Of a DNA stretch of 58,594 bases, positions 1-58,594 are shown in pieces. This stretch comes from a virus. Below the pieces are notes generated by a model, which saw only the letters and a list, made by a program, of their open reading frames with translations, had not been told where the DNA came from and did not search any database. Each line of letters begins with the position of its first letter. Positions within the stretch are counted from its first letter, which is position 1. The DNA lies in the IMG/VR virus record IMGVR_UViG_3300025520_000140, positions 1 to 58,594 of that record. One strand, 5' to 3'. A program made the position numbers and the translations under genes.

Positions 1-372
1 ATGTCTACCAAGATGTGGGTCGACCTGCCGAATCGCGAGCGCATTCGCATTCACCAGCATTGGCTGGGGGCGATTATAATTGCGTTTGAGCCTCCTTCGC
101 ATCCTAACCAAGTGCACGTGCTAAAGGGCATAGTGCCGGTTGGGACTGTGGGTAAGGTAAGCCTCTTTACCTACCTGCAAGAGGCGAGTCTAGCGAACGA
201 CTTTGTGGAGGCACCGCACAGCTTTCACTTTCGCGGGCACCAGCTGCGCATTGACGCCACGCTAGAGGAATACTCGTTGTTTGGGTTTATCCCGATGCCG
301 AAGTGGATAGTGCAGGCCATTCACGTTACGCTCTGGGTAGACGGGGGGCGGTACCGCGAGTTCGTGTTTTAG
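1..372 (+). CDS. hypothetical protein, 123 aa
   Basis: I do not recognise this protein. The frame opens with ATG at the first base and runs 123 codons to TAG, so it is probably complete, although an upstream start outside the window cannot be excluded. It has no obvious signal peptide, membrane segment or metal-binding cluster. Aromatic and hydrophobic stretches near residues 20-30 and 90-110 suggest a small soluble globular fold. It lies 40 bases upstream of smpB on the same strand and could be co-transcribed with it. The usual smpB neighbour rnr (RNase R) is not what is seen here. Confidence 0.6.
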   Translation: MSTKMWVDLPNRERIRIHQHWLGAIIIAFEPPSHPNQVHVLKGIVPVGTVGKVSLFTYLQEASLANDFVEAPHSFHFRGHQLRIDATLEEYSLFGFIPMPKWIVQAIHVTLWVDGGRYREFVF

Positions 373-6350: not shown

Positions 6351-6400
6351 TAAAAATTGCCCCCTTTCACCGTATCCGGGGTTTAGCTTCGTAAGAGTGC

Positions 6401-11208: not shown

Positions 11209-11210
11209 TG

Positions 11211-12191: not shown

Positions 12192-12203
12192 GGTATCCCT
12201 CCT

Positions 12204-12965
12204 TTACAGCCAGCGGTTGCGGCAGCTTATCTCTAAGTTTGACCAGGAAGCGCCACCTGCCGCGACCACTTGAATGGTGTTGGCCCCCGGCGTGAGCTGG
12301 GGAAAGCTTGGCCGCTCCAGCAGGTGCAAGGCTTTTTCCCTGGCTTCCCCCCTCACGAGAGCGGCCGTTTTATGCCGGCAATCAACCTCCAGCCGCTCCC
12401 CCGCGGAGAGCGCTCCCCGGTAGGTGAACTGCTCCTCATTGACTCTGACCGTCAGAAACTGGCTGCCGCCGCCCGATATGCCCCGCAGCAAAAAGAGAGG
12501 GTCTGACGGCGCCGTCCCCCTTTGGTAGTGGGTGTAGGGGCTTGTCGTTATGAGCAACTCATCCGGCGCGAGGTCGTAGGCGAAGGGGTCGTCGCAGACC
12601 ATCCGCAGCGTAATCAGCCCCTGGCTTGCCGTCACCTGGATTTGCAGATCCGCATCCGTCCAGGTGGCCAGATAATATCTGTCCGGCCAGTCGTCAAAGA
12701 CCAGCCGCTGCGCTCCCCGCATCGGGTTTAACCAGGAGCGCAGCCGGTCCAGCTGCTGATGGAGCTCCCCATATGACGCGATTTTAAGCCAGCAGTCCAG
12801 GCTAAGCACGCGAGCTTCAAAGTCGGGCGGCATCCTGAAGACGCCATGCCTGCCCGGCATGACGATCACCTTTTCCCGCGCCCCTGGGAAAAGGGAGAGA
12901 GGGGAGCGCAGGAGATAGACGGAGTAGTTGCCGCAGTGTTCCCCGGCAAACGAGAAATGCCCCAT
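12204..12965 (-). CDS. distal tail protein (Dit family), 253 aa
   Basis: Dit forms the hexameric ring joining tail tube to tip. The N-terminal Sipho_tail pattern (GNYSVYLLRSPLSLFPGAREKVIVMPGRHGVFRMPPDFEARVLSLDCWL) and the LRSWLNPMRGAQRLVFDDWPDRYYLATWTD segment are characteristic. The start codon overlaps the tape-measure stop by 1 base, the usual gene order. Confidence 0.88.
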   Translation of the reverse strand: MGHFSFAGEHCGNYSVYLLRSPLSLFPGAREKVIVMPGRHGVFRMPPDFEARVLSLDCWLKIASYGELHQQLDRLRSWLNPMRGAQRLVFDDWPDRYYLATWTDADLQIQVTASQGLITLRMVCDDPFAYDLAPDELLITTSPYTHYQRGTAPSDPLFLLRGISGGGSQFLTVRVNEEQFTYRGALSAGERLEVDCRHKTAALVRGEAREKALHLLERPSFPQLTPGANTIQVVAAGGASWSNLEISCRNRWL

Positions 12966-15022: not shown

Positions 15023-15026
15023 CCCA

Positions 15027-15296
15027 TCACCTCCATTTCGCCGGGACTTTGAGCCCCTTGCTCCGCGCGATTTTCATCAGCTGTTCCGTGGAAAGGCGGC
15101 TTGGCGCGGCCTTTTTTCTCCCGCTTTCTTTGAGCATTTTCTTCAGGCTAGGTAGCCGCTTCTGCCTGGCGAAGGCTTCGATGTGCCAGGCCAGGTAGAT
15201 GAGCTCTTGCCTTCGCTCCGCTTTTTCCTCGGCGTAGCCCTCAAAGAAAAGCCCCAGCTCAAAGGGGGTCAGCTCCCAGACTTGAGCCGGGTGCAT
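15027..15296 (-). CDS. tail assembly chaperone, second part (gpT-like), 89 aa
   Basis: Small charged helical protein (MHPAQVWELTPFELGLFFEGYAEEKAERRQELIYLAWHIEAFAR) lying between the 106-aa chaperone and the tape measure. In lambda-like phages this position holds the second chaperone, made by a programmed frameshift. Here it has its own ATG and possible independent initiation, and I see no obvious slippery heptamer. Confidence 0.75.
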   Translation of the reverse strand: MHPAQVWELTPFELGLFFEGYAEEKAERRQELIYLAWHIEAFARQKRLPSLKKMLKESGRKKAAPSRLSTEQLMKIARSKGLKVPAKWR

Positions 15297-15337
15297 TTTG
15301 AGTCTCTTTACGGCGGCGGAGAACAGCTCAGCAAAGC

Positions 15338-15658
15338 CTATTTCCCGGCTGCCTCCACCGCCTGCGGGTTTCCCGGCTGCGCGCCGAAGGCCAGCGTCAT
15401 CGCTTCGCCCAGTTTCCCGGCCACCGTGGTAATGTCGCTGTACTCGTCAATTAAGTCCGCGCACTTTTCCGGGGTCAGCTCTTTGTCCTCATGAAAAAGA
15501 CCGGCGTAGACAATTGTCCGCAGGTCTTTCACAGAGATGTTATCAAGATCTAGCTTTGTCAGGTTCTTGCCCGTCAGCTCCTCGATTTTAATCAACGCGT
15601 TCATGCCGTAGCGGAGCGTCCTCGGTTTGTCCAGCTCTATGGTGACGCCTGGTTTCAT
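15338..15658 (-). CDS. tail assembly chaperone (gpG-like), 106 aa
   Basis: Starts at the ATG at 15658 (MKPGVTIELDKPRTLRYGMNALIKIEEL) preceded by GGGAGGA. The pattern is typical of phage tail chaperones: a beta hairpin, then acidic helices (KDLRTIVYAGLFHEDKELTPEKCADLIDEY). It is encoded between the major tail proteins and the tape measure, and coats the tape measure during tail assembly. Confidence 0.8.
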   Translation of the reverse strand: MKPGVTIELDKPRTLRYGMNALIKIEELTGKNLTKLDLDNISVKDLRTIVYAGLFHEDKELTPEKCADLIDEYSDITTVAGKLGEAMTLAFGAQPGNPQAVEAAGK

Positions 15659-41283: not shown

Positions 41284-41312
41284 TTGACAAACTCCATATT
41301 ATGGTGTAAAAT
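41284..41312 (+). promoter_or_regulatory. strong sigma-A-type promoter of the defence island
   Basis: TTGACA (41284-41289), 17-base spacer, TAAAAT (41307-41312). It faces right, into the 297-aa gene at 41489, leaving an mRNA leader of about 170 bases. Confidence 0.8.
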
Positions 41313-41351: not shown

Positions 41352-41488
41352 CGTTGTTTGACCGTCGTCTGTATTAATGGTACAACGGCTTGTCCTTAGA
41401 AGCAGGAGCGCGAATGGGGGTCTTTTGCAGGGCGAAGGTGACTTTTTGGTGACTTTTTATAGCAACTCAAATTGGGAGGAAGGAAGGC

Positions 41489-42382
41489 ATGCGCTTCTGT
41501 GATTTTTTAAATAAGCTTTACGACCGTTTTCCTTGCTCCAATCAAGGTCAGTTCGCACTCGAAATCTTCTCTGCGCTTTGCGGTGAAACGAACCCTGTTA
41601 AAGCTAATAGACCCAATGACTTTGCATTTAGCAGTTGCTTGCCCTCTGGCTTGAGTGGCAGTGACCAAACAAGCAGAAAACGACTCTACGGTAATAACAG
41701 CAGATACAAGGGCTTGACAAACCCGGTAAAGACGCACATTCTAGCGAATGCCAGCAAAGCCACATTTGTTGCCTATTGCGAAGCCTTTATATCGGTGGAG
41801 GCATTAAAAGGATTATGTGACGATTTCGGCGTTTCCGCAGATGTGGGCAGGGCACTGGTTTTCGAAGGCCTCTTTGCGCAGTTCTTGGAATTTGCTAAAT
41901 CCGGTAGGGATAGTGCCCCCGATACCTTTGTCGCCGACTTCGTGACTGAGCGTCTGATGAACCCACCCGAGAAGACCGCCGAAAAAGAAAAAGCAGATTC
42001 CGCGCCAGTGCCCCTTTGCGCCGGAGATGACTTCCGCTTGGTAAGGCAAAACCCATCGAGACCACACAAAGCCGCTTTTTACGGTATGCTGACCCATCAC
42101 TGGGTAATCAAGAACAGCGGCGAGGCTGTTTGGGACGGGCGGTATATGGATTTTGTCAATGTCGGGGAAACGCCGCTGAAGCTGAGGCCGGAGGGCACTT
42201 GCATTGAAATAGAAAAAACCCCGCCGGGCAGCGAGGTTACAATAACTATCAATGTTGAAGCACGACACATTGAAGGAACACACGAGATTGTATTAGATAT
42301 GAAAGACAGCGAAGGGCGCCTCTGCTTCCCCGACAAAAGAGCAGAACTGCGCTTGCAGGTGACTGTGGGGTGGACAAAATGA
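41489..42382 (+). CDS. unrecognised protein with C-terminal NBR1-like Ig domain, 297 aa
   Basis: The N-terminal part (residues 1-155) is helical. A segment SRKRLYGNNSRYKGLTNPVK...KATFVAYCEAFISVEALKGLCDDFGV recalls small N-terminal domains attached to bacterial conflict-system proteins; this is tentative. Residues 185-297 resemble the NBR1 central Ig fold: HHWVIKNSGEAVW, then PPGSEVTITINVEARHIEGTHEIVLDMKDSEGRLCFPD, a Trp/Asn-Gly pattern with a PG-E-V-I strand. No catalytic motif is visible. It starts with GGAGGAAGG upstream, is first after the defence promoter, and overlaps the start region of the HTH gene. Role unknown; adaptor or sensor is an inference. Confidence 0.65.
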   Translation: MRFCDFLNKLYDRFPCSNQGQFALEIFSALCGETNPVKANRPNDFAFSSCLPSGLSGSDQTSRKRLYGNNSRYKGLTNPVKTHILANASKATFVAYCEAFISVEALKGLCDDFGVSADVGRALVFEGLFAQFLEFAKSGRDSAPDTFVADFVTERLMNPPEKTAEKEKADSAPVPLCAGDDFRLVRQNPSRPHKAAFYGMLTHHWVIKNSGEAVWDGRYMDFVNVGETPLKLRPEGTCIEIEKTPPGSEVTITINVEARHIEGTHEIVLDMKDSEGRLCFPDKRAELRLQVTVGWTK

Positions 42383-42417
42383 AATCTGAATCCAAGTCAA
42401 AAAACGGAGGTTTAAGA

Positions 42418-42639
42418 ATGCCGAGGCATGATATTGAAAAATGGGCTTCGATGAATGAATTATTGGAATACCTCGATGTGAGCCGCGAAGCGGTTCTGCG
42501 GTGGATTGCCCATCGAAATATGCCCGCGCACAAGGTCGGGCGGCTATGGAAGTTCAAATTTTCTGAAGTAGATGAATGGATTCGTTCTGGCGGAGCGGAC
42601 GATCGCGACGACCAAAAAGATACGCAAACGGAGGAATAA
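42418..42639 (+). CDS. excisionase-like HTH DNA-binding protein, 73 aa
   Basis: MerR/excisionase-type winged [57 protein letters not shown] chose the ATG at 42418 because ACGGAGG precedes it; ATG 42379 also exists, overlapping the previous stop. Such genes often accompany type I restriction genes in the Bacillota, possibly controlling hsdM. Excisionase function for the prophage is an alternative. hsdM begins 4 bases after its stop. Confidence 0.8.
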
Positions 42640-42643
42640 GACA

Positions 42644-44233
42644 ATGGGGAGAGCTAAGAAAGAAGTAAAAGAACAGCCTGTCGAGCAGGTGCTTTGGGCA
42701 TCTGCCGATAAGCTGCGTAAAAATATGGATGCCGCGGAGTATAAGCACGTTGTCCTTGGGCTTATCTTCCTTAAATACATATCAGATAACTTCTATGAGT
42801 TGTATCACAAACTTGAGTCTGGCGAAGGCGATTATGCCGGAGCCGACCCGAACGACCCATATGAGTACCGAGCGGAGAATGTCTTTTATGTGCCGCCACA
42901 GGCTCGCTGGGACTACCTGCAAGGCCGGGCAAAACTTGCTACCATCGGAAAAGACGTAGACGATGCTATGGATGCGATTGAAAAGGACAACCCGTCCCTT
43001 AAGGGGGTATTGCCAAAAGAATATGCTAAAGAAAAACTGGACAAGCAGTCGCTTGGCGGGTTAATTGACATCATCAGCACCATTGCACTCGGTGACAGTG
43101 TTTCGCGCTCCAATGACGTACTTGGTAGGGTTTATGAATACTTCCTCGGTCAATTTGCCCTAGCTGAGGGTAAGAAGGGCGGACAGTTCTATACGCCGCG
43201 ATGCGTTGTTCAACTGCTCGTTGAGATGCTCGAGCCGTACGAAGGCCGAGTATTTGATCCATGTTGCGGTTCAGGCGGTATGTTTGTACAAAGCGAGAAA
43301 TTTATCGAAGCTCATGCTGACCGTTATAATGGCAAGGCAAAGGAAATCGATAAGCTGTTTGAGAGCGTTGTGTCTGTTTATGGGCAGGAAAGCAACCAGA
43401 CCACTTGGCGGCTGTGTAAGATGAATCTTGCTATGCGCGGTATCGACAGCTCCAACGTGAAATGGAACAACGAAGGTTCCTTTCTTAATGATGCGCATCC
43501 CGATCTCAAGGCTGACTTCGTCATCGCCAATCCGCCGTTTAACGACAGCGACTGGTCCGGTGAACTGCTCCGTACGGACGGACGTTGGCAATACAGTAAA
43601 GAAACCCCGCCACCTGCAGGCAACGCTAACTATGCTTGGATTCAGCACTTTATCTATCACTTAAATCCGAAAGGTACGGCGGGCTTTGTGCTTGCAAAAG
43701 GCTCTCTCTCCTCAAAGACGAACGGCGAGGACAAAATCCGCAAGGCGCTGATTGATGCAGGGCTTGTAGACTGCATTGTGAATTTACCAACAAAATTGTT
43801 CCTCAATACGCAGATACCAGCTTGCCTGTGGTTTCTTTCACGTGCTAAGGAAAATGATCCGAACCACCCGCGACGTGATAAGATTCTATTCATTGACGCT
43901 CGGAATATGGGGACACTCATCAGCCGTAAAACTCGTGAGCTTACTGCTGAGGACATCAAGATGATTGCTGCGACCTATCACAACTGGAAAACAGGCAAAG
44001 ATTACGAGGATATGCCGGGTTTCTGCAAGTCTGCGCTTGTATCTGAAGTCTCCACACTTGATTATATTCTCACGCCAGGGCGGTACATTGGTTTACCCGA
44101 TGATGAAGATGATTTTAACTTTGAAGAGCGTGTCAAAACGCTGACGTCTGAGCTAAATGCGCAGATGGAGGAAAGCGCAAAGTTGGACGTAAGAATAAAG
44201 GAAAACCTGGTAAAAGTGGGGATTGAGCTATGA
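42644..44233 (+). CDS. hsdM: type I restriction-modification methyltransferase subunit HsdM
   Basis: N6-adenine methyltransferase subunit (529 aa). The N-terminal helical HsdM domain ([37 protein letters not shown]) is followed by the catalytic domain: motif [14 protein letters not shown], motif [15 protein letters not shown], and the [16 protein letters not shown] signature. It acts as M2S1 with HsdS. GGAGG precedes the ATG at 42644. It overlaps hsdS by 4 bases. Confidence 0.97.
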
Positions 44234-45390
44234 CGGAGTGGAGAGAGTGTAAGCTTAGGGAATTAGCAGACTTTAATCCTGATAGTTTAGCTGCTAATAA
44301 TAAACTGCAATTTATTAGTTATTTAGATACAGGTAGTATAACAAAAGGCAAAATTAATACTGTACAGCATTTAAATTTGTCTGTTGATAAAGTTCCAAGC
44401 AGAGCGAAAAGAATTGTTAATAAAAATGATATTGTTTACTCAACAGTAAGACCAAATCAAGAACACTATGGAATTATTAAAAATCCAGTTGATAATATGA
44501 TAGTCTCAACTGGTTTTACAGTAATACGCTCAAAAGAAGATAAATGTTATAGTGATTTTCTGTATTATTTTTTAACATTACCAGAAAACACAGGGTATTT
44601 ATCAAATGTTGCAGAAGATTCAACAACAGCATATCCGTCTATAACACCGAATGTCATTATGGATATGGATATTTTCCTCCCCCCCCTTCCCGAGCAAGAA
44701 GCCATAGCGGAGGTTTTATCCTCCCTCGACGACAAAATCGACCTGCTAATGAGGCAGAATACTACGCTTGAAACCTTAGCGCAAACCTACTTCCGGCAGT
44801 GGTTTGTGGAAGGTGCGAACGAGGATTGGGAAGAAAAGGGGCTTGATGAGATCGCTGATTTCCTAAATGGATTGCCACTTCAAAAATATCCGTACAAATA
44901 TGGCGAGCCGGTATACGCTATCAAAATTAAAGAGCTTAACAGCGGATATAGCGACAATTCCGACATATGCTCAGCAGACGTGCCAGAAAAGTATATTGTC
45001 AATCCTGGTGATATTGTGTTTTCGTGGTCGGGTAGTCTGGTGGTTGACATATGGAAGTACGGGAAAGGGGCATTAAATCAACACCTGTTCAAGGTGACAT
45101 CCGACAAGTATCCGAAGTGGTTTTACTACTACTGGATTAAGTATCACCTGCCAGAGTTTCGGATTATTGCTGAATCAAAGGCGACAACGATGGGGCATAT
45201 ACAGCGCGGTCATCTCACCGCTGCAAAAGTCCTCGTTCCGAGTGACTGCGAACTAACGGTAATGGATAAAACGATGCAACCACTAATTGAAAAAATAGAA
45301 CAAAATAACGCACAAATCCTGACCCTACAAAAACTCCGCGACACGCTGCTGCCTAAACTAATCAGCGGTGAAGTTCGCGTTAAACAATAA
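44230..45390 (+). CDS. hsdS: type I restriction-modification specificity subunit HsdS
   Basis: Two target-recognition domains separated by a helical spacer ([42 protein letters not shown]) with a matching C-terminal helix ([34 protein letters not shown]). TRD1 (44250-44680) is strikingly AT-rich compared with the second half and with hsdM and hsdR, and its codon choice (AAT, TTA, ATA) differs from its neighbours. This points to a domain exchange from an AT-rich source. Target unknown. Confidence 0.95.
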
Positions 45391-45404
45391 GGAGGTGCCC
45401 GTCA

Positions 45405-45521
45405 ATGCCTAAACTGTGTGAATCCGCAGTAGAAGAAATGGTTATCGAGGAACTGCAAAACCTAGGCTACATCTACATAGCAGGTGTTGACCTTGCGCCC
45501 GATGCACTTAATCCCGAATGA
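45405..45521 (+). pseudogene. hsdR: detached N-terminus of HsdR ending in an in-frame TGA
   Basis: An ATG at 45405 with GGAGGTGCCCGTCA upstream opens MPKLCESAVEEMVIEELQNLG, the canonical HsdR beginning. It ends at a TGA at 45519-45521, in the same frame as the downstream 1026-aa frame. Family sequences read DxxPERxSYEDVLL here, so the TGA stands where an arginine codon (CGA) is expected. A single substitution would explain it. Readthrough or sequencing error cannot be ruled out. Confidence 0.75.
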
Positions 45522-45545
45522 AAAAGCTACGGGGATGTTCTGCTT

Positions 45546-48500
45546 ATGAGGAGACTTCAGGGGGCACTTTCCAAGCTAAATCCGACCATACCCGCTGATG
45601 CTATTCAGGGCGCGATTCGTAAATTATCAAGGATAGCCACCTCGAATATGCTCGCTGACAACGAGGAGTTCCACCGTATGCTCGTTGATGGCATACCTGT
45701 GGAATACCGTAAAGGCGCAGACATTAAGGGTGACTATGTCCATGTGGTTGACTTTGAGAACCCGCTGAACAACGAGTTCCTCGTAGTTAACCAGTATACC
45801 ATCGTTCAAAACAATAACAACAAACGCCCCGACGTGCTGCTGTTCGTCAACGGCATTCCGCTTGTAATATTCGAACTGAAAAACCCCGCCGATGAGAACG
45901 CCACCTGCCACAAGGCGTTTGACCAGTTACAGGCGTACAAGCTGGCGATACCGGGGCTTTTCACCTACAACGAAATCTGCGTCATCTCCGATGGCTTAGA
46001 GGCAAAGGCGGGGTCGCTGACCGCGTCTTATTCCCGTTTCAGCGCGTGGAAGACGAAGGATGGCATCAAAGAAGCAGCCAAGTTTGATGACGAACTATCG
46101 ACGCTGATACATGGGCTTTGTGCTCCAACGACGCTTATTGATTACATACAAAGTTTCATAACCTACGAAAAGACTCATACCGAGGATAAAGAAACCAAAA
46201 TCGTTAAGGTGGAGACAGTCAAAAAAATAGCGGCTTATCATCAGTATTACGCTGTGAACAAGGCAGTGGAACAGACTATCCGTGCCAGTGGGGTAACTAC
46301 ATCCTCTCTAATGTTTCGTGAAGACCCTGAAAAGTACGGACTTCCGGCCGCTAAAGACCAGCCGAGGGGAGACCGTAAGGCGGGCGTGGTATGGCACACA
46401 CAGGGTGCTGGCAAGTCGCTTTCGATGGTGTTCTATGCGGGCAAAATCGTGAGAAAGCTAAACAATCCAACTATTCTTGTCATAAACGATCGCAATGATC
46501 TCGACGACCAGTTATTCGATACATTCGCCGGCAACAGCGATCTCCTGCGCCAGCCGCCGCAACAAGCGGATTCTTGCGAGGAACTGAAAACTATGCTGAA
46601 AGTTGCATCCGGCGGCATCGTGTTTACCACCATACAGAAGTTCATTCCCGATAACAATGCCTCGGTCTATGAACTGCTGTCTTCCCGTAACAATATCGTG
46701 GTTATTGCAGATGAAGCGCACCGTACTCAGTACGGCTTCAACGCTAGGCTCCGCGACATCAAAGAGAACGGTGAGGTTGTCGGTCAGCGAATTGCTTACG
46801 GCTTTGCCAAATATATCCGCGACGCACTACCGAACGCGACGTTTATTGGCTTTACTGGTACACCTGTCGAAAAGCAGGACGCGAACACCCCTGCCGTTTT
46901 CGGCAACTATATCGACATCTACGACATCGCTCAAGCGGTGGAAGATAACGTGACCGTCCGCATATTCTACGAAAGTCGCCTCGCAAAAGTGAACCTCACC
47001 GAAGAAGGGAAGCATCTTGTGGAGCAGTTTGACGCGGAACTGGACGAGGTGGGGGAAACCGACGAAGCAACTGCTGCCAAGATAAAATGGGCAAAGCTGG
47101 AAGCCATCGTTGGTAACGAAGACAGGATTCGAATCCTCGCCAATGACATCGTTACCCACTTTGAGGAGCGGCAGAAGGTATTCGAGGGGAAAGCTCTCAT
47201 TGTCGCGATGAGTCGCCGAATTGCTGTCTCCTTATATGATGCGATAATTAAGCTGCGCCCCGAATGGCACAGTGACGACTTGGATAAAGGCGTTATAAAA
47301 GTCGTGATGACTTCGAGCAGTTCGGACGGTGCGGCGATTCAAAAGCACCATACAACAAAAGCACAACGGAAAGCCCTCGCCCTTCGGCTGAAGGACGAGA
47401 ATGACCCGTTGAAAATAGTCATTGTCCGCGATATGTGGCTCACAGGTTTTGATGCTCCGTGTCTGAACACAATGTACATTGACAAACCGATGAAAGACCA
47501 CAACCTTATGCAGGCCATCGCCCGTGTCAATCGTGTTTTCAAAGACAAGCCCGGCGGTTTGATAGTTGACTACATCGGTATAGCCACGAATCTAAAAAAG
47601 GCTCTTGGCTTCTACGCTGAAAGCGGGGGCAAAGGCGTCCCCGCTGAAACACACCAGAAAGCTGTTGAGATCATGCTTGAAAAACTGCAGGTCGTGCGTG
47701 GCATCCTTCACGGCTTCGATTACTCAGCATTTTTCTCCGGCGCTGTTAAGGATAAGCTGTCGCTTATCCTACAAACAGAGGACTTCATTCTCGGTGTAGA
47801 CGACGGTAAAAACCGTTATGTCCGAGAGGTGTCGCTACTCGGGCAGGCATACGCTCTTGCGAAGCCCGACCCAAAGACTTTTGAACATGCGGAGGAGATA
47901 GCGTTTTTCCAAGCGGTCAAGGCTCGGCTGACAAAGTTTGAGACCGGCGGCACCGGCAGGGACGATAGTTACGATTCGGTCATACGCAACATAGTAAACT
48001 CCGCCATCGCCTCTGACCAAGTGGTGGATATCTTTAGTGCAGCTGGGCTTGAAAAGCCGGAACTCTCCATTCTTTCGGAGGAATTCCTGAAAGAAATTGA
48101 GGGGATGAAGTACAAGAACGTCGCCATTGAACTGCTGAAGAAGCTGCTTTCCGATGAGATAAAACTACGCTCCAAGCATAACCTGGCCAAATCAAAGTCG
48201 CTGATGGAGATGCTTGACGGGGCGATAAAACGATATCAGAACAATCTGCTGACCACGGCAGAGATTATCGAGGAACTCATCCGCATAGCCCGTGAAATCA
48301 ATGCTGCAGACAAGCGCGGTCAGGATATGGGGCTTTCGGAGGACGAGCTCGCGTTCTATGACGCTCTCGAAACGAACGACAGCGCGGTGAAGGTTTTGGG
48401 TGACGACCAGTTGCGGGCAATCGCACGGGAGATAGCAGACAAGGTCAGAAAAAATGCGACCATCGACTTTGCTATCAAGGAAACAGCCCGCGCCCGGATT

Positions 48501-48626
48501 ATGGTTATCGTTCGGAGGATACTTAACAAGTACGGCTATCCTCCGGATAAACAGCCTGCTGCCATAGATCTTGTTATGAAGCAGGCGGAAAATCTGGCAG
48601 ATATCTGGACTGCAGAGTTGAAATAG
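45546..48626 (+). CDS. hsdR: type I restriction endonuclease subunit HsdR, 1026 aa, missing its N-terminus
   Basis: Restriction and translocation subunit. The PD-(D/E)xK nuclease is present (KRPDVLLFVNGIPLVIFELKNP) and the SF2 motor has VVWHTQGAGKSLSMVFYAG (Walker A), VIADEAHRTQYG (Walker B) and GFTGTP. The C-terminal helical domain is present. The frame begins at an ATG at 45546 in the same register as the 38 codons upstream of the TGA at 45519, so about 47 family residues are lost if translation restarts here (a GGGGA about 10 bases upstream is a weak site). The protein may still be partly functional or may have been silenced. Confidence 0.9.
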   Translation: MRRLQGALSKLNPTIPADAIQGAIRKLSRIATSNMLADNEEFHRMLVDGIPVEYRKGADIKGDYVHVVDFENPLNNEFLVVNQYTIVQNNNNKRPDVLLFVNGIPLVIFELKNPADENATCHKAFDQLQAYKLAIPGLFTYNEICVISDGLEAKAGSLTASYSRFSAWKTKDGIKEAAKFDDELSTLIHGLCAPTTLIDYIQSFITYEKTHTEDKETKIVKVETVKKIAAYHQYYAVNKAVEQTIRASGVTTSSLMFREDPEKYGLPAAKDQPRGDRKAGVVWHTQGAGKSLSMVFYAGKIVRKLNNPTILVINDRNDLDDQLFDTFAGNSDLLRQPPQQADSCEELKTMLKVASGGIVFTTIQKFIPDNNASVYELLSSRNNIVVIADEAHRTQYGFNARLRDIKENGEVVGQRIAYGFAKYIRDALPNATFIGFTGTPVEKQDANTPAVFGNYIDIYDIAQAVEDNVTVRIFYESRLAKVNLTEEGKHLVEQFDAELDEVGETDEATAAKIKWAKLEAIVGNEDRIRILANDIVTHFEERQKVFEGKALIVAMSRRIAVSLYDAIIKLRPEWHSDDLDKGVIKVVMTSSSSDGAAIQKHHTTKAQRKALALRLKDENDPLKIVIVRDMWLTGFDAPCLNTMYIDKPMKDHNLMQAIARVNRVFKDKPGGLIVDYIGIATNLKKALGFYAESGGKGVPAETHQKAVEIMLEKLQVVRGILHGFDYSAFFSGAVKDKLSLILQTEDFILGVDDGKNRYVREVSLLGQAYALAKPDPKTFEHAEEIAFFQAVKARLTKFETGGTGRDDSYDSVIRNIVNSAIASDQVVDIFSAAGLEKPELSILSEEFLKEIEGMKYKNVAIELLKKLLSDEIKLRSKHNLAKSKSLMEMLDGAIKRYQNNLLTTAEIIEELIRIAREINAADKRGQDMGLSEDELAFYDALETNDSAVKVLGDDQLRAIAREIADKVRKNATIDFAIKETARARIMVIVRRILNKYGYPPDKQPAAIDLVMKQAENLADIWTAELK

Positions 48627-48679
48627 AAAAGGCGGCAATCGCGTAGAAGTAAACAGCTTATGGGGGAGGGAGAAGGCAA

Positions 48680-49609
48680 ATGGCGATATTGGGAAAGACA
48701 CTTATGGATGCCGGGTTTGATGGCATCTTCTCCGAGGTGTCACACGATGAAAAACTGGGGCTGATAAATCCCCACCATTTGCGCTTGTTCCAACTAAGTG
48801 TGGTTGACAATGCGTTTACTTTTGATGCGCTGAAGAGATTTCTTCTCATTAATATCGGGCAGTACATCTACTCGCGGGAACGCATCAAGAAATTTATGGA
48901 CGAAAAAGAGATTACGCTTATCGGTTTAAAAGCGGTAGAACTGCTGCGTAATCGCTGCAATGGCGATTTGACTTGGCTCGGCGACGAATTGGGTGACCTT
49001 ATGCTGTATGTCTTTTTGGAGCAGATTCTTAACGCTCCGAAGGTGTTTAGCAAGTTTGACTTTCCTGCTGATGGGTATCTTGTGCCGGGGAGCAGCGGCG
49101 TACACCTGCTTCAACCTGACAACGTTATTCCGACTTACCAGATGGTTTTTGGCAAGTCACGCATCGTCGGCGACCCGCGTGACGCGATAGATGCAGCCTT
49201 TGTTACGCTTGAAGCCATAAAGAATGATACTTCCCGCGAAATGCGGCTCGTGGAAAGCACGGCGTTTGACAAGCAGTTCGCGCCGGAAGTCGCCGATCTT
49301 CTGCAAAGCCTCATTCTGCCAAGCAAAGGTCAATCTCCCACCCACGACACGGCTTTTGGCGTATTCCTTGGCTACTCGCTGGGATTAGATGTAGATGGCT
49401 ACACATCAGAGCAGTTCCGCGCCGAGTTGGAGCGGAAAATGAAACTCGACATTAAGAACCACGTCACCTACATAGTAGACAAAATCAAGGCCGCAAAAAT
49501 GGAGAGGTATTCGTTTTACTTTTACTTTTTGCCCTTCAACAAGGCAGATGGCGAGAAGCAGAGCATAATGGGTTCGCTCCTCGGGCTTAAGGGAGGGGCT
49601 GTAGGATGA
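48680..49609 (+). CDS. hamA: Hachiman-like HamA (DUF1837) protein, 309 aa
   Basis: First gene of a Hachiman-type anti-phage pair. The C-terminal region fits DUF1837: PGSSGVHLLQPDN..., then YQMVFGKSRIVGDPRDAIDAAFVTLEAIKND. In DUF1837/HamA the nuclease signature is expected around the VFGxS(R/K) strand as ExK; here GKSR stands in that place, so the catalytic residues may be shifted or diverged. The pair partner hamB overlaps by 4 bases. Ribosome-binding site GGGAGGGAGAAGG. HamA is a nuclease released on DNA damage detection by HamB in studied systems. Confidence 0.82.
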   Translation: MAILGKTLMDAGFDGIFSEVSHDEKLGLINPHHLRLFQLSVVDNAFTFDALKRFLLINIGQYIYSRERIKKFMDEKEITLIGLKAVELLRNRCNGDLTWLGDELGDLMLYVFLEQILNAPKVFSKFDFPADGYLVPGSSGVHLLQPDNVIPTYQMVFGKSRIVGDPRDAIDAAFVTLEAIKNDTSREMRLVESTAFDKQFAPEVADLLQSLILPSKGQSPTHDTAFGVFLGYSLGLDVDGYTSEQFRAELERKMKLDIKNHVTYIVDKIKAAKMERYSFYFYFLPFNKADGEKQSIMGSLLGLKGGAVG

Positions 49610-52230
49610 CTGACAAATATGGCATCAGCTTGGGCAATGTTATCTTTGCAGGCATCGACCGCAACCCTTACCTGATTGAGTTGTACAACCATATACTGTA
49701 CAACTATGCATTGTCCCTCTTTGGCATCACACAGATGGAGCCGAAAGAGGTTGATGTCGAGGCAGCTCTCCGTTTTGCCGATGTCCTCTCGAAGTCCACC
49801 GACAAGGAGAAGTCCGACAGACACAAGATTTGGGCGCAGGAAATCGTTGCGCTTTTAAAGGCGACCCAACCTGACAATCCCGCCGTGCTTGAATATTTTG
49901 GTTCAGTTCTTATGAGTACCGAGAACTTTCGCGGTCTTGCTATGAATGCACCTCAATTTCAGAGTCGAACGTTGCTCGACAGGTTCTACACGGAATTTTG
50001 CAGGGAGCTTCTAAGCATCCCGGCTGACAAAGAGAAACAGTTCTTCCGTTCACAGAAGGAAGTTTACGACCGCCTGACCGAACCGTACTTTAGTTATTCG
50101 GGACCAACCTCAATGGGCAAGTCTTTTGTTATGCGCATGTTTATCAAAAAGCAGGTTATGGACGGCTCGAACCTGAACTTTGCCATCCTTGTCCCAACGA
50201 AGGCTCTGATAAACGAAGTATACAGCAAAATCATCGAGGACTTAAAAATCGATGAAAAGAGAGGCTATCTCGCCGAGCGCAATTACACTCTTGTGACCGC
50301 GGCAGGTGCGCTGCAATTAAAAAAAGGCGACATGAACTTCATCTTTGTCCTTACGCCGGAGCGGTTGCTATACTTGCTTATCGGGAAGCCAGATGTGAGG
50401 ATTGACTACCTCTTCATCGACGAGGCACACAAGATTTCAGCAAAGGACAGCCGCAGTGCGTTCTACTACAAGGTTGTGGATATGATTTCCCAAAGGCAAA
50501 AACCGCACGTCATATTTGCTTCGCCGAATATCCCAAACCCAGAGGTGTATTTAAAACTACTGCCCGACGCGGATATGGAAGCCGACCGTAAACTGGCCAC
50601 CTCGTTTTCGCCGGTCAGCCAGATAAAGATTCTGGTGGATTTGATATGCGGCGAGATAAAGACATTTAACTCCTATACCGAGCAGCTTGATACGGTGACG
50701 AGTTTTCCGCACGGGGTAAACCTCCACCAGATTATCGTTTCGGTATGCCGTCGACAGGACGATCGAAAAATGCAGAATATCGTCTATTTCAATTCAAAGG
50801 AAAAGGCGGTTGAATATGCGCTCGACTTTGCCAAGAATGTGCCGGAGCAAAACGATGAGGCTCTGACCTCGTTAGCGAAAGAAATAAGGAACGAGGTTCA
50901 CGGCGATTACTACCTTGCCGATATAGTCACAAAGGGTGTGGCTTACCATATTGGCTACTTGCCCGCTTCTATTCGGGTGAGAATAGAGGATCTGTATCGC
51001 GACCGTAAAATCCACACGTTGTTCTGTACCAGCACCTTATTGGAGGGAGTTAATCTGCCTGCTGACAACCTGTTTATTACTACCTATGGCAAAGGTCGTG
51101 GCAGGTCAAAGATGAAGGCCGTTGACTTCAAGAATCTAATAGGGCGCGTGGGGCGTATTGAGTACAATCTCTACGGCAACGTCTTTCTTGTTCGACTCGA
51201 AAGTAAGACTACTACCGAGGGCTTTATTGAGTTGCTTAAGCAAGAAGTGCCGAAACAGGAACTGTCCCTTGTTTCTGAACTGACAGACAGTCACAAGAAA
51301 CAGATTGTGGCTTGCCTTCTGGAGGGCGACATTGGACTTGATAATGTGAAAATCAAATCTAAAGAGTTGTACAAGCTAATCCGTAAATTTGCCTTGATAC
51401 TGTTGCGCGATATAACCCAGGACAACAACAGCATTGTCCGCCGCGAGTTTGCGCCATACTTGCAGGGCAATACCGAGGCTAAAATTAAAGAAGCTTTTCG
51501 CAAGATGGACAGCGCGCCGGACGATGACATTAATATATCCGTTGATCAGACGAAAAGCCTGTATGGAGCCATAGCGAATGGTCTCAGTTATCCTTCGCTT
51601 ACTGCCGAGCGAAATGTCGACTATAATACCTTGATGGATTTCCTGACAGAGTTAAGCGGAGTATTCAATTGGAGAAAATATGACAGCGAGAGCATTGGCA
51701 ACAACAACCGCTTAAAATGGTACGGCGTAGTACTGAGTCGCTGGATTAACGGCCACGGACTGAGCTTCATCATGAAAGAGTCAATCGACTACTATAGAAG
51801 GAATCCAGAAAAGAAGGTTCAAATCAACAACAAGCTGGAGGTATACAACGGCTCCAAGCGGCACATAAACAGTCTGATTGGTGAAACATTGGAAGCTATT
51901 GAGCGGGTTATCCTATTCAGCCTTTCAAACTACTTCTTGAAGTTTTCGGAAGCGTACAAGCGGTATCATCATATCGAGGGTGATCTGAAGAATGATTGGT
52001 ATGAGTATGTCGAATATGGGACAACGAATCCGCTCACGATATTTCTTCAGCGAAACGGATTCTCACGTGAAACGGCTATGTATATACGGCAGCACCGCAC
52101 CGAATACGTCACCGGTTTAGAAGTTGCCGACCCCAAGCTGAAGCAAAGCCTTGCCCAATGCGGCAACTTTAGCGTCGAACTTGAGGTCGCAGATATGATG
52201 TATAACAATCCCGAGCTGTTTGTGGATTGA
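49606..52230 (+). CDS. hamB: Hachiman-like HamB helicase, 874 aa
   Basis: SF2 helicase partner of HamA. Walker A YSGPTSMGKSFVMRMF, Walker B YLFIDEAHKIS, motif III FASPNIPNP, motif V FCTSTLLEGVNLPADNLFITTYGKGRG, motif VI NLIGRVGRIEYN. N-terminal 150 residues precede the helicase core, and the C-terminal half is a large helical domain. Directly coupled to hamA (4-base overlap). In known systems it holds HamA inactive until DNA ends or damage are sensed. Confidence 0.88.
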   Translation: MTDKYGISLGNVIFAGIDRNPYLIELYNHILYNYALSLFGITQMEPKEVDVEAALRFADVLSKSTDKEKSDRHKIWAQEIVALLKATQPDNPAVLEYFGSVLMSTENFRGLAMNAPQFQSRTLLDRFYTEFCRELLSIPADKEKQFFRSQKEVYDRLTEPYFSYSGPTSMGKSFVMRMFIKKQVMDGSNLNFAILVPTKALINEVYSKIIEDLKIDEKRGYLAERNYTLVTAAGALQLKKGDMNFIFVLTPERLLYLLIGKPDVRIDYLFIDEAHKISAKDSRSAFYYKVVDMISQRQKPHVIFASPNIPNPEVYLKLLPDADMEADRKLATSFSPVSQIKILVDLICGEIKTFNSYTEQLDTVTSFPHGVNLHQIIVSVCRRQDDRKMQNIVYFNSKEKAVEYALDFAKNVPEQNDEALTSLAKEIRNEVHGDYYLADIVTKGVAYHIGYLPASIRVRIEDLYRDRKIHTLFCTSTLLEGVNLPADNLFITTYGKGRGRSKMKAVDFKNLIGRVGRIEYNLYGNVFLVRLESKTTTEGFIELLKQEVPKQELSLVSELTDSHKKQIVACLLEGDIGLDNVKIKSKELYKLIRKFALILLRDITQDNNSIVRREFAPYLQGNTEAKIKEAFRKMDSAPDDDINISVDQTKSLYGAIANGLSYPSLTAERNVDYNTLMDFLTELSGVFNWRKYDSESIGNNNRLKWYGVVLSRWINGHGLSFIMKESIDYYRRNPEKKVQINNKLEVYNGSKRHINSLIGETLEAIERVILFSLSNYFLKFSEAYKRYHHIEGDLKNDWYEYVEYGTTNPLTIFLQRNGFSRETAMYIRQHRTEYVTGLEVADPKLKQSLAQCGNFSVELEVADMMYNNPELFVD

Positions 52231-52309
52231 GATATGGGCTTGTGATCCGACAAGAACTTCTCGTTGCACAAAAACAGATTTACGCGGACGCAGTAAGTAG
52301 GTATTCTGT

Positions 52310-52325
52310 CTTTAGTATACTAAAG
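52310..52325. promoter_or_regulatory. perfect 16-base palindrome upstream of gajA
   Basis: CTTTAGTATACTAAAG, a perfect palindrome ending 25 bases before the gajA ATG. TATACT within it could serve as a -10 element, so a dimeric repressor bound here would block that promoter. Confidence 0.55.
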
Positions 52326-52350
52326 CCCAAACACTCCGAAGGAGGCCTAT

Positions 52351-54078
52351 ATGAGGATAACTTGTGTTAAGGTTTCAAATTACAGGAACATCGATGGAAT
52401 AAACGTCAATTTCAACCCGGAGTGTAATTACATCATTGGGGAGAACAACCTTGGAAAAAGCAATTTCCTTTCTCTCCTCAGCACCATATGCAACGGAAAG
52501 GGTTTTGACGACAATGACTTCACTGATCCCGCAAAGCCCATAGAAATTGAAATGGATATAAAACTGCTCCCGAATGAGCAGGGTTTTTTTGGAGACAATT
52601 TTTCGCCCGAAGATGCTTCGTTGCTAAAGATTCGCTATCAACAAGCAATGAGGGACGCTTACCCGACCATCGTCAGCGCAGACTCAAACGAAAGCATCCA
52701 GACACGGCTCATAAGGAAAATCAACTTCCTTAAATATGAGACTACTTCTATTCCAAGCAGGGAATTACGCCTTGATTCGCAAAAAGGTGCTGGGCTTCTC
52801 ATAGGTAGAATAATTGAGATGTTTATCACTGATGGAGCGCCGGTATTCCTGAATGACGAGCAGGTTGGCGACTTAATAGATTTCATCAACAAGCATTTGG
52901 GGAAAATCCGTAGCTTTCGCGACTATTCCATTAAGGCAACGGTCTCACCAAATACAACCGAAATGTTGACGAGACTTTTTTATCTGTCTGATGGTGATAG
53001 AAAAATAGACACAACGGGCAGCGGTGTCCAATATATGGCGATGGCTTCTATAAACATCCTGTGCCAAATTATGGAGTTGTACAAAAGCAAGTCAACTCCG
53101 TTTGAGGAACAGATTTATACGGACGACAACGGCAAAAAGCTATTGCCGCTAGTACTATCGATTGACGAACCTGAGGTGCATCTTAACCCTTATTTGCAGA
53201 GGTCGCTCATCGGCTACTACAAAAGGATTCTACGTAACGAGGATGCCGAGTTTGCAGAACTGCTAAAGAGCTGCTTTAACGTGGATGGCATCGCCGGACA
53301 GTTGATTATCGTCACCCACTCGACGGACGCTTTGGTTGGGGATTACCGTAACCTAATCCGTTTCTACAAGGATGGGGAAAGGACTGCGGTCGTAAGCGGT
53401 GCAGACCCAAGCATGAGTTTTACTTCCGTTAACGAAAAACACCTGATAATGCATTTCCCTGAAATAAAGGAAGCTTTCTACGCTAAATGCGCCATGGTGA
53501 TTGAGGGCGAAACGGAGTACGGGTGCGTAAACACTTTTGCCGACAAAGGTGGCGTCGCTTTGGACGACTACGGAATTTGCGTGATAAATGCAAGGGGCGA
53601 GGGTTCAATTAAACCGCTCCGACAGCTACTGGAACGATTCCATGTGCCGAGCATCGCTATTTACGACGGCGATGTAAAGGCGGGTCATACGGCAGCCGCT
53701 GACGAGTTTTATACAACGGAATTGTGCTTTGAAATCGAGATTGTCAAAGCGCTGTACGCCAACGGCAATGCCTCACTTGTCCGCCAGATAGCGCTGGATT
53801 TAGATAACAAAGCTGAATCGATAACAATGGATGCAGATTTCGTTCGTAAGCACTTCAAAAAGATGGGCATAGATATCAATAGCTACTCACCAAAGAAGCT
53901 GTCAGATGTAAGCGACACCAACGAAATTGAGTTCTGTCAGATGTATTCAGCGTGGTTCATGGCTAAAAAAGGCGTCCTCCTTGGGCGGATTATTGGCGAC
54001 ACGCTTCCCTCCGAACTTATTCCCGCATGCTATATCAATGCGATAAAAAAAGCGCAGGAGGTAGCTGCGAATGGCTAA
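52351..54078 (+). CDS. gajA: Gabija-like GajA: ATPase with TOPRIM nuclease domain, 575 aa
   Basis: Class 2 OLD-family nuclease. ABC-type ATPase: Walker A NYIIGENNLGKSNFLS, signature region DTTGSGVQYMAM, Walker B LPLVLSIDEPEVHLNP, then QLIIVTHSTDAL. The TOPRIM domain shows the catalytic glutamate in AMVIEGETEYG and DxD in IAIYDGDVKAG. It is followed with an 8-base overlap by a UvrD-type helicase, the arrangement that defines Gabija. Known GajA enzymes nick DNA when nucleotide pools fall during infection. Ribosome-binding site GAAGGAGG. Confidence 0.87.
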   Translation: MRITCVKVSNYRNIDGINVNFNPECNYIIGENNLGKSNFLSLLSTICNGKGFDDNDFTDPAKPIEIEMDIKLLPNEQGFFGDNFSPEDASLLKIRYQQAMRDAYPTIVSADSNESIQTRLIRKINFLKYETTSIPSRELRLDSQKGAGLLIGRIIEMFITDGAPVFLNDEQVGDLIDFINKHLGKIRSFRDYSIKATVSPNTTEMLTRLFYLSDGDRKIDTTGSGVQYMAMASINILCQIMELYKSKSTPFEEQIYTDDNGKKLLPLVLSIDEPEVHLNPYLQRSLIGYYKRILRNEDAEFAELLKSCFNVDGIAGQLIIVTHSTDALVGDYRNLIRFYKDGERTAVVSGADPSMSFTSVNEKHLIMHFPEIKEAFYAKCAMVIEGETEYGCVNTFADKGGVALDDYGICVINARGEGSIKPLRQLLERFHVPSIAIYDGDVKAGHTAAADEFYTTELCFEIEIVKALYANGNASLVRQIALDLDNKAESITMDADFVRKHFKKMGIDINSYSPKKLSDVSDTNEIEFCQMYSAWFMAKKGVLLGRIIGDTLPSELIPACYINAIKKAQEVAANG

Positions 54079-55894
54079 TGCTAATCTTGGGGAAATCAAG
54101 GATAAAATCTCAAGGCAACACGAGGGTGATGAGAAGCAGCTTGAAGTCATTTTCTCCGACAGTCCTCGTATTATTGTAGAAGCACCAGCGGGCTATGGGA
54201 AGACCACGACTATGATTAGCCGGATTGCTTATTTGTTTGCTTCCGGCGGCATTCCGAATCCCAAACGGATTCTTGGATTGACCTTTAGCGTCAACGCTGC
54301 GTTGAAAGTTAAGCGTGAGGTAGCCGAAAAACTGCCCGCTCTACTCGGCTCTCAAAACAGTCTTGTGTCATTGAGCGATAAAGTTACCGTCACGAACTAC
54401 CACGGTTTTTGTAAGGGGATTCTAAAAAAGTATGGTTACCTCATTGCCGATGCTTTGAGAAAGGACGTTAATCTTTTTCGGGCAGTCGGTGACAGTGAGA
54501 TTGATAGGCATGCAAACCTTAAAACCGCTTTGTTGCTGCAGGAACTTGAGCAACTCAAAGCTGTAGAAACCGCAATAAAGGAAGCTCGCATCCCCGATTT
54601 GCAGACTATACGCAACTACAACGAAATAGTCATCAAGAAGCTGTTGCCATTGGATTTTATTACCCACAATGCAATACTTCTGCTTGTTATAGAAATTTTC
54701 GACCTCTTTGCCGAAATAAGGAAGTTCTACCAAAGCTACTTTCCTCTTATAGTCGTCGACGAGTTTCAAGACACAAATTGTATTGCGTGGAGTTTGCTCG
54801 AAGCAGTTATTACCGACCGCACCCAGTTGGTTTTTCTAGGTGACCCGCTACAACGGATATACGGTTTCATCGGCGCATTACCGGATATAATGACGACGGT
54901 CGCCGAAAAATACTGCATGACCAAGGTGGTTTTGTCAAAGAACTACAGGTTTCGCAACAATCCAGAAATGCTCAAGCTTGATAGAAACATCAGAGAAAAC
55001 GCCGCCTCCTGTTTTACATCAATATTTCAAGATGCAGACGTGGCGCAATTGCCGGCATTCTGGGGTAGCACACAACAAGACGAGGCAAATAAGGTCGCTG
55101 CGAAAGTACAAAGCCTTATGAGTAGCGGCACAGATAAAATTGCGATCCTTTTTAGGAGCCGTGGCAAAAACGCTGAAATTGTAGAAGCTGAACTCGCGAA
55201 GCGCAGTGTGCCGTACTTCTACGGAATGTTTACCGATGAAGACCCCGACTATGTTGACTTTCATAACAAGTGCCACGAGATGTTCATTAAAAAGTTTGGG
55301 AAATTCAAGAATATAAATAAGAAAGCGTTGATTACTTTTTCAGATAGCGTAAAAATGGCGTATGCATTAACAAGCGGCAAGACGGTCAATTCCCTACTTC
55401 GGCTGCTTGATGCCCTCGTTGAAAAAGTCTCTATAGACTACGCTGACCTTTTGTCCGAGGATAAATATGGATTGCTTCTGGACATATTTGAGAATCGGCA
55501 GTTGAAACAGGCAATGGAATATGTAGACTCGCAAGTCATCCTTTCGACCGTTCACGGCGCGAAAGGTCTTGAATGGGACTATGTTATCCTTTCGGATGTG
55601 GAACAGTGGGTGCTTACATTCATTTGCCATTCGTGTACAAGTGCCGATAAGAATAACTCAACCATCAACTATTGCCGCCTACCCCAGATGATTCCTGATA
55701 ATATGAAAACCACCATACTTGATGACCTTTGTGTCTTTTATGTTGGATTAACGAGAGCAAGAAAGCAAGCGTATATATCGGCGAGCGCCGAACGGTTCAA
55801 TGCACAGGGGCGGCAATTTACTAACGGCAAGATTTGCTGCTTGGCTTTGATTAACGGCGTAAAACTTGTTAAAGCGGAGTCTGTCGCTATTTAG
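54071..55894 (+). CDS. gajB: Gabija-like GajB: UvrD-family helicase, 607 aa
   Basis: SF1 helicase: motif I VEAPAGYGKTTTM, II LIVVDEFQDTN, III FLGDPLQRIYGF, IV LSKNYRFRNN, V STVHGAKGLEWDYVIL, VI DDLCVFYVGLTRARKQAYIS. Smaller than chromosomal UvrD (about 720 aa), as usual for GajB. It overlaps gajA and ends before two terminator-like hairpins at 55928 and 56004. It partners GajA in phage defence. Confidence 0.87.
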   Translation: MANANLGEIKDKISRQHEGDEKQLEVIFSDSPRIIVEAPAGYGKTTTMISRIAYLFASGGIPNPKRILGLTFSVNAALKVKREVAEKLPALLGSQNSLVSLSDKVTVTNYHGFCKGILKKYGYLIADALRKDVNLFRAVGDSEIDRHANLKTALLLQELEQLKAVETAIKEARIPDLQTIRNYNEIVIKKLLPLDFITHNAILLLVIEIFDLFAEIRKFYQSYFPLIVVDEFQDTNCIAWSLLEAVITDRTQLVFLGDPLQRIYGFIGALPDIMTTVAEKYCMTKVVLSKNYRFRNNPEMLKLDRNIRENAASCFTSIFQDADVAQLPAFWGSTQQDEANKVAAKVQSLMSSGTDKIAILFRSRGKNAEIVEAELAKRSVPYFYGMFTDEDPDYVDFHNKCHEMFIKKFGKFKNINKKALITFSDSVKMAYALTSGKTVNSLLRLLDALVEKVSIDYADLLSEDKYGLLLDIFENRQLKQAMEYVDSQVILSTVHGAKGLEWDYVILSDVEQWVLTFICHSCTSADKNNSTINYCRLPQMIPDNMKTTILDDLCVFYVGLTRARKQAYISASAERFNAQGRQFTNGKICCLALINGVKLVKAESVAI

Positions 55895-56153: not shown

Positions 56154-56471
56154 ATGCCCAAATCGTCTAGCATTTACACGCGGGTTGAACCTGAAATTAA
56201 AGAGCAGGCCGAACAGATACTGTCAAAGCTCGGCATTCCAGTAGCGAGTGCGGTGAATCTGTTTTTACATCAGGTTGTCTTGCGTAAAGGGATTCCATTC
56301 AGTGTCTGCCTGCCTCCCAACACGCCCTTTGACTATTCGGCTTTGACAGCCGAGCAGTTTGATGAGGAAATGCAAAAAGGCCTCACTAGCTTCGACGCTG
56401 GCAGGATTGTATCGTCTGCGGACGTGAGAGCCAAGATGCAACGGCAATACTGCGTATGCGATGGAAAGTGA
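56154..56471 (+). CDS. RelB/DinJ-family antitoxin, 105 aa
   Basis: The N-terminal ribbon-helix-helix pattern SIYTRVEPEIKEQAEQILSKLGIPVASAVNLFLHQVVLRKGIPFSV is typical of DinJ-like antitoxins (KxxAxxIxxxLGIxxSxAIxxFxxxxVxxxGxPF). It binds its operator as a dimer and neutralises the toxin through the C-terminal segment. AAGGGAGTGAAGCTGAA precedes the ATG. It overlaps the toxin start by 16 bases, giving coupling. Confidence 0.92.
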   Translation: MPKSSSIYTRVEPEIKEQAEQILSKLGIPVASAVNLFLHQVVLRKGIPFSVCLPPNTPFDYSALTAEQFDEEMQKGLTSFDAGRIVSSADVRAKMQRQYCVCDGK

Positions 56472-56785
56472 TTTACGCGGAAGATGCCGTGCAGGACCTG
56501 CAGGGCGTATTTGACTATATTTCCGATGTTTTGCTTGAGCCTATTGTAGCCGCAAGGCAAGTAGACCGAATCATGGATGCGGCAGATTCCCTTGACCACA
56601 TGCCGCTGCGTCATCGTCTGTATGATAGGGAGCCGTGGCGGTCTAGGGGTTTGCGCGTTATGCCTGTCGATAACTATCTGGTGTTTTATTTACCGGACGA
56701 AGCAAAGAAGATCGTTGCGATTATCCGCATAATGTACGGGAGGCGCGACATCGGCACGCACTTACTCCGGGATCCTAGCTGTTGA
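56456..56785 (+). CDS. RelE/ParE-family toxin, 109 aa
   Basis: RelE-fold protein: WKVIYAEDAVQDLQGVFDYI, DRIMDAADSLDHMPLRHRLYDREPWRSRGLRVMPVDNYLVFYLPDEAKKIVAIIRIMYGRRDIG with the closing RxxYxxRD. It would cleave mRNA at the ribosome (RelE) or poison gyrase (ParE); the sequence does not decide. As the last prophage gene before attR it would stabilise the element. Confidence 0.9.
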   Translation: MRWKVIYAEDAVQDLQGVFDYISDVLLEPIVAARQVDRIMDAADSLDHMPLRHRLYDREPWRSRGLRVMPVDNYLVFYLPDEAKKIVAIIRIMYGRRDIGTHLLRDPSC

Positions 56786-58351: not shown

Positions 58352-58594
58352 TTGAAGGGTTTTTGGAACGGGCTGCAGAGGGCTTTTGCTGCCGTCGGCG
58401 GTTTTCTGGGCTGGTTCCTCGGCGGCATGGACGGGTTTCTTTACGCGCTGATTGTTTTCGTCACGGTTGACTATGTGACTGGTGTCCTAAGTGCTGTTAT
58501 GGGTAGAAGGCTATCCAGTGTGGCCGGGGCTAAGGGCATCTTCAAGAAGGTGCTCATTTTTGTCTTGGTGGGAGGGAGTAGGACACATAATTGA
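58352..58594 (+). pseudogene. frameshifted phage holin remnant
   Basis: Residues 1-74 resemble the prophage holin, about 70 percent by eye (FWNGLQRAFAAVGGFLGWFLGGMDGFLYALIVF, VDYVTGVLSAVMGRRLSS, GAKGIFKKVLIFVLVG). It starts at a TTG with GGAGG upstream. After GTG GGA a 4-base insertion (GGAG-like, about 58574-58577) shifts the frame to end SRTHN-stop. Without it the sequence would read LVGVGHIID, as in the prophage holin. It lies outside attR and may be a remnant of another phage. The window ends at the stop codon. Confidence 0.8.

Follow-up and report, generated by a model that had tools for sequence, protein, structure and literature searches.

A prophage FW-domain protein at the head of exchangeable defence operons: a candidate autoregulatory switch of immune cargo

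Regulators encoded at the head of bacterial immune operons have been described in several forms. RptR (RMS-proximal transcriptional regulator) is encoded by the first gene before type I R-M genes and represses through direct repeats (PMC12255303), CapK-CapS is a constant regulator pair located upstream of diverse immune operons (PMC13373217), and the WYL regulators BrxR/CapW are found upstream of diverse, exchangeable immune operons (PMC9122601, PMC9122589, PMC9122588). In addition, FW (PF16158) domains occur in bacterial XRE-family regulators, and the FW domain of Nbr1 binds N-terminal peptides (PMC9233695). Here, we describe a prophage locus in which a two-domain protein with an FW domain is encoded as the first gene of a defence operon. 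We propose, with a confidence of about even chance, that this FW protein switches the cargo operon, including its own gene, by reading repeats with its N-terminal domain and receiving a protein signal through its FW domain. As far as the literature was searched, no earlier description of the place of the FW gene and of its operator arrays was found.

The analysed window, that is, the whole stretch of 58,594 nucleotides, is an IMG/VR prophage (IMGVR_UViG_3300025520_000140) with serine recombinases beside smpB at its left, and its minus strand carries the tail, capsid, terminase and early genes. The cargo operon lies on the plus strand (41489-55894), and its features are listed in Table 1. As stated in the original prediction, the FW gene heads a defence operon and is located upstream of the HTH_17 protein and hsdMSR, and HamAB and GajAB were identified further downstream. 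The ORF is a real gene, as indicated by its conserved start, ribosome-binding region and promoter (an SD-like GGGAGGAAGGAAGG precedes the ATG, and the start codon and upstream region are kept in the relatives L005 and L001) and by purifying selection (dN 0.073 and dS 0.293 for the window compared with L005). At the cargo end, an antitoxin of RelB/DinJ type is followed by a ParE/RelE-like ORF (56154-56785). Two similar holin-like genes lie one on each side of the prophage (5934-6482 and 58352-58594), and a second prophage may begin to show at the right end of the window.

Table 1. Features of the cargo operon, its leader and the FW protein (nucleotide positions in the window; domains in residues)
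Feature	Position	Strand	Remark
Sigma-70 region-4-like early phage gene	40383..40847	-	borders the cargo slot opposite the operon; phage context, outside the operon
Sigma-70-type promoter TTGACA-17-TAAAAT	41284..41312	+	predicted, for the cargo operon
Distal degenerate repeat copy GGGGGTCTTT	41416..41425	+	spacing to the following copy about 22 nt
Leader repeat copy GGTGACTTTT	41437..41446	+	conserved in L005 and L001
Leader repeat copy GGTGACTTTT	41448..41457	+	11 nt after the preceding copy
FW-domain (NBR1-like Ig) protein gene	41489..42382	+	297 aa; predicted autoregulatory sensor-switch
Helical N-terminal domain of the FW protein	residues about 1-160		eight helices in the model of a typical member
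FW domain of the window protein	residues about 176-297		C-terminal; profile and fold matches
HTH_17 (excisionase/MAD1-like) DNA-binding protein	42418..42639	+	constant partner of the FW gene
hsdM, type I R-M	42572..44233 (as listed)	+	translation probably starts at the ATG near 42644
hsdS	44230..45390	+	
hsdR	45546..48626	+	
HamA, Hachiman system	48680..49609	+	PF08878
HamB helicase, Hachiman	49606..52230	+	
GajA, Gabija system	52351..54078	+	
GajB (UvrD-like helicase), Gabija	54071..55894	+	

The NBR1-like Ig domain that had been read from the sequence was confirmed by structure prediction, which had been suggested as a check. A Foldseek search with the AlphaFold2 prediction for the window protein gave the NBR1 FW domain 4ole as top match (E 2e-7), followed by matches that included 6vhi and 7vqo, and the NBR1-type beta-sandwich fold is present. 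The family profile agrees, as its PDB search retrieved human NBR1 4ole (E 7e-6) and ILRUN 6vhi (E 0.0035). The window protein itself matched PF16158 N_BRCA1_IG with 20.2 bits (E 9e-4), below the curated cut-off of 28. Across the family, 34 of 36 members were matched at E<=0.01 (best 1.2e-10), L003 and L004 scored above the curated cut-off with 38 and 39 bits, and relatives with 21-22% identity to the window protein exceeded it. The C-terminal domain of the window protein is thus an FW domain, and we call it diverged because only two (W205 and W215) of the four conserved FW tryptophans remain; for example, position 269 is Leu in the window protein and Trp in most relatives.

The predicted helical N-terminal module also stood up to modelling, and the eight helices of a typical member were modelled with a pLDDT of 91. 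Searches against Pfam and PDB sequences gave chance-level matches only for this domain, and Foldseek matched no PDB fold, including DNA-binding folds. The weak matches that Foldseek returned from BFVD were A0A8S5TJH2 (prob 0.99, E 0.14) and A0A8S5Q7J1 (prob 0.69), both of them uncharacterised proteins of phages. An XRE/HTH N-terminus was sought by Pfam in 36 members, and PF16158 was the only domain matched. The N-terminal domain of the window protein is not basic (pI 5.9). When the FW protein was searched against PHROGs, NCBIfam and PADLOC, nothing useful was obtained, with 0 families matched in PADLOC-DB, and the remark that no defence system with such a component was known holds for these three collections, from which it is absent as a defence component.

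The FW gene has a non-random neighbourhood. Direct scans detected FW relatives at about 86% (L005, L006 and L007), 64% (L001), 46-47% (L008) and 21-22% (others), and no full-length relative was found in plasmid collections. Using the downstream HTH protein as an independent query against IMG/VR, 80 loci were obtained, and the FW gene was located immediately upstream of the HTH gene, with a gap within about 60 bp, in 37 of them, these contigs being partly non-independent and some coming from related samples. Random neighbourhoods, which had been named at the outset as the outcome that would speak against the reading, are excluded by this linkage. The FW-HTH head is constant, and it is followed either by R-M (type I of several clades, or type III-like) or immediately by Hachiman: the first cargo was HsdM in 25 of the 37 loci, HamAB in 5 and type III-like Mod/Res in 3, and the remaining 4 were contig ends or unclear. 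Because of this variety, the FW protein is not part of any single system. In the FW-first scans, L008 was the one locus without HTH among the contigs extending that far; there, the FW gene is followed by a DUF4209 protein of the candidate system PDC-S39 and two matchless proteins (11202-15450), with no HTH gene or R-M beside it. About 32 of the 37 FW-HTH loci carry recognisable early phage genes opposite (polA-like, DUF2800-like, DUF2815-like or sigma-like), and six HTH loci have the same early genes but no FW gene (L031, L041, L043, L034, L028 and L033). Elsewhere, genes for a HerA-like ATPase and a NurA-like nuclease precede a start-truncated FW gene in another phage contig (L013, 4985-8342), and the FW ORF of L058 (5166-5980) is split into two overlapping ORFs of 61 and 210 aa, of which L055 carries an intact relative.

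Upstream of the FW gene, a promoter and an array of direct repeats recur. A TTGAnn/TTGACA-17-TATAAT-like site was found in most relatives, its position relative to the start codon ranging from -163 to -208, and the promoter of the window lies at the same place in L005 (TAGAAT) and L001 (TATAAT). The strong promoter claimed originally is thus supported by its recurring position, but not by a scan of the window by itself, which gave 2 such sites compared with 2.1 in shuffles. An inverted repeat is often present between the promoter and the repeats (L008, L042, L051 and L029); its arms differ by locus, e.g. GCCCTGC...GCAGGGC and CCCGCTA...TAGCGGG, and its AT-rich centre resembles CATCTATAATTAGA.

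Most FW-family members have three to five direct-repeat copies of 6-8 bp directly upstream of the start codon. The spacing of the copies is constant (in order, 22/23 or 33 nt, 9 nt and 11/12 nt), with the two distal spacings differing by about one helical turn, while the sequence varies by locus (AGGACTT, AAGGGAC, TGGTACA, CAGGTAC, AGGTCCT, TAGGACA, TTAGGTA, TGGGACT and others). When an array was defined as four 7-mers with <=2 mismatches in total and spacings of 22/23 or 33, 9 and 11/12, four-site arrays were detected in 18 of 36 FW loci and in 1 of 600 random windows, and in none of the 24 HTH loci without an FW gene. In each of ten loci tested, the array was the sole cluster of its kind. 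The window has a shorter array of three sites (GGGGGTCTTT, GGTGACTTTT and GGTGACTTTT, with spacings of about 22 and 11), which contains 4 mismatches and is weak, as 18 of 4000 random windows equal it and it is not outstanding in the four-site scan. This shorter array of the window clade is kept in L005 and L001, and GGTGACTTTT has no further exact copy within the 58.6 kb window. No array is present in four loci (L050, L052, L061 and L068), whose promoter lies closer to the start codon, at -65 to -75.

Several explanations of the repeats were rejected. A leader peptide code was ruled out because the spacings of 22, 23 and 11 break the frame, and a conserved leader RNA structure was not supported, as single-sequence folds share no common fold. 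The repeat type is not set by the R-M type, because equal repeats precede different R-M in L037/L042 and L029/L036. The HTH_17 protein is an unlikely determinant of repeat identity, since its sequence is nearly invariant while the repeats differ; the HTH loci lacking the FW gene also have no array.

The origin of repeat specificity was examined in L045 and L056. These are near-identical up to the promoter and again from about codon 80 through the HTH gene, and the cargo differs from right after the HTH gene. Between -119 and +241, they are just 65-77% identical, compared with 90-100% outside this interval (93-98% in the flanks, with an identical HTH), and the limits of this diverged patch coincide with those of the repeats plus the first ~80 codons. 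The repeats differ jointly (AGGTACC vs AGGTCCT), dS is saturated in codons 1-82, and dN is 0.019 in codons 83-283. Uneven divergence of the same kind was observed in L036/L042 and L039/L040, and it is absent from L037/L042 and L062/L063, which have equal repeats. L036 and L044 share repeats and have identities of 66% in the N-terminal part and 60% in the FW part, while L036 and L042 differ in repeats and have identities of 42% and 71%, respectively. In these comparisons, the repeat sequence follows the N-terminal part and not the FW part, with the confounder that the repeats adjoin the N-terminal codons, so that joint travel is expected from physical linkage alone.

Since a constant gene stands before exchangeable cargo and the array diversifies with the N-terminal part of the same gene, the FW protein is best read as an array-reading controller. 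In the mechanism that we propose, the FW protein and the small HTH_17 protein would together form the constant controller of operons with exchangeable defence cargo, carried by a set of related prophages that are probably mostly of Clostridia type. The N-terminal helical domain would bind the leader direct repeats of its own operon, presumably as DNA rather than RNA, and this binding, which probably acts by autorepression or as a roadblock, would limit how strongly the FW protein and the cargo are expressed. The FW domain would bind a protein ligand, which by comparison with Nbr1 is probably a peptide at an exposed N-terminus, and ligand binding would alter the repression, by which the expression of R-M, Hachiman and Gabija may be tuned to establishment or infection. 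The operator and its reader would evolve as a single cassette, like heteroimmune phage repressors. By analogy, the fused FW domain is likely to be a sensor, and of the three roles offered originally (sensor, anti-restriction modulator or structural adaptor), that of a sensor fits best, although as an operon-level switch. Because the predicted promoter lies upstream of the arrays, control on the leader RNA instead of DNA is possible. The proposed mechanism is further weakened by the N-terminal model, which resembles no known DNA-binding fold, by the pI of 5.9 in the window protein, by the four loci that carry no array, by the weak array of the window and by the Leu at position 269 of its FW domain.

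The other two roles are disfavoured because the FW gene is retained ahead of cargo of unrelated kinds. That it modulates the structure or activity of type I R-M or Hachiman, e.g. by tuning restriction, might be expected from cargo that mostly begins with hsdM and frequently includes HamAB, but the FW gene also precedes type III-like R-M, HamAB directly without R-M, and PDC-S39 in L008, and the close pairs L045/L056 and L037/L042 keep it despite a change of R-M clade. We therefore regard such a modulator as highly improbable. A phage function bordering the cargo by chance, either a lysogeny immunity repressor or a replication/partition factor with iterons, is improbable too, if less so. Immunity and replication regions typically contain iteron-like arrays whose specificity differs between phages, and the FW gene directly faces the early replication module with the sigma-like gene. 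However, it has the same orientation as the cargo and only a short gap to the HTH gene, it is missing from the cargo phages L028 and L033, which retain the early module and whose cargo begins with the HTH gene, and a second array was not found in the loci tested.

The main rival is that the FW protein is a stand-alone defence or sensor-effector gene, placed first in a phage defence hot spot and regulated by the repeats, while another protein reads them. This has to be considered because Lamassu (LmuA, LmuC and LmuB) replaces the FW gene in L031 (2702-5967), directly before the HTH_17 gene and R-M, with ORFs like it in size and sequence in the FW slot of L041, L043 and L034, and because a PNP_UDP_1 nucleosidase domain is fused to an FW domain in a Bacteroidota chromosome (L024, 1474-2664, minus strand), the only PF16158 match over cut-off among about 200 Bacteroidota genomes. 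Nucleosidases of this class serve as effectors in bacterial conflict systems, and the occurrence of the FW gene in L008 without HTH and R-M points in the same direction. Against this reading, Pfam and fold searches with the N-terminal domain revealed neither an enzymatic motif nor a toxic fold of known type, and the FW and HTH genes are paired much more tightly than one interchangeable defence gene would be. It also leaves unexplained why the repeat sequence tracks the first 80 codons. We consider a stand-alone defence gene unlikely and prefer the autoregulatory switch.

The silencing or poising of mobile defence cargo is poorly known, and a constant head before changing systems can be a useful handle on it. 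The FW-HTH head can also be a route to new cargo, such as the PDC-S39-type set behind L008. Particularly, the NBR1-type domain, which has so far mainly been seen as an autophagy cargo reader, offers a testable case as a bacterial protein sensor, and the natural L045/L056 pair makes the question of repeat specificity directly testable. More tentatively, and at somewhat less than an even chance, we suggest that these loci represent a new class of phage-borne immune-cargo controller, which would combine a DNA-binding domain of unknown fold with an NBR1-type FW sensor, and in which operator and reader would be swapped as a cassette, giving prophage-specific specificity groups independent of the defence system behind.

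Compared with the known systems, the FW loci share single features with each of them. The HTH_17 partner resembles MAD1 of MADS (E 5e-16; 58.8 bits, below the equivalog cut-off of 80), but no other mad genes are present, the window operon consisting of hsdMSR, HamAB and GajAB, and the window hsdM scored 62.9 for NCBIfam MAD2 against a cut-off of 720. With eukaryotic NBR1 and ILRUN, the FW protein shares the FW fold and part of its conserved residues, a likeness of the domain only, whereas the PB1, ZZ, UBA and LIR parts and the autophagy context are absent. In bacterial XRE-FW regulators, an FW domain is likewise found within a DNA-binding protein, as predicted here, but they have an XRE helix-turn-helix, while the N-terminus of the FW protein was recognised neither by Pfam nor by fold search. 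As in CapK-CapS and BrxR/CapW, a constant regulator or pair heads exchangeable immune operons; in contrast to these, no kinase, STAS or WYL domain was found, and the FW loci have an HTH_17 partner, an FW sensor candidate and a prophage cargo setting. The likeness to RptR comprises the first position in a type I R-M operon and direct repeats that closely precede the regulator's own start codon. RptR, however, is small, a repressor of four helices that uses a conserved TAGCTA site, whereas the FW protein has 297 aa and two domains, its repeats differ between loci, and its cargo extends beyond type I R-M. RptR (PDB 9R2Z) was absent from the PDB sequence matches of the FW protein and from the fold matches listed, and by the tests made, neither RptR nor CapK-CapS appears to be a homologue. 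By analogy of position and repeats, RptR would be the closest functional analogue of the FW protein rather than a homologue.
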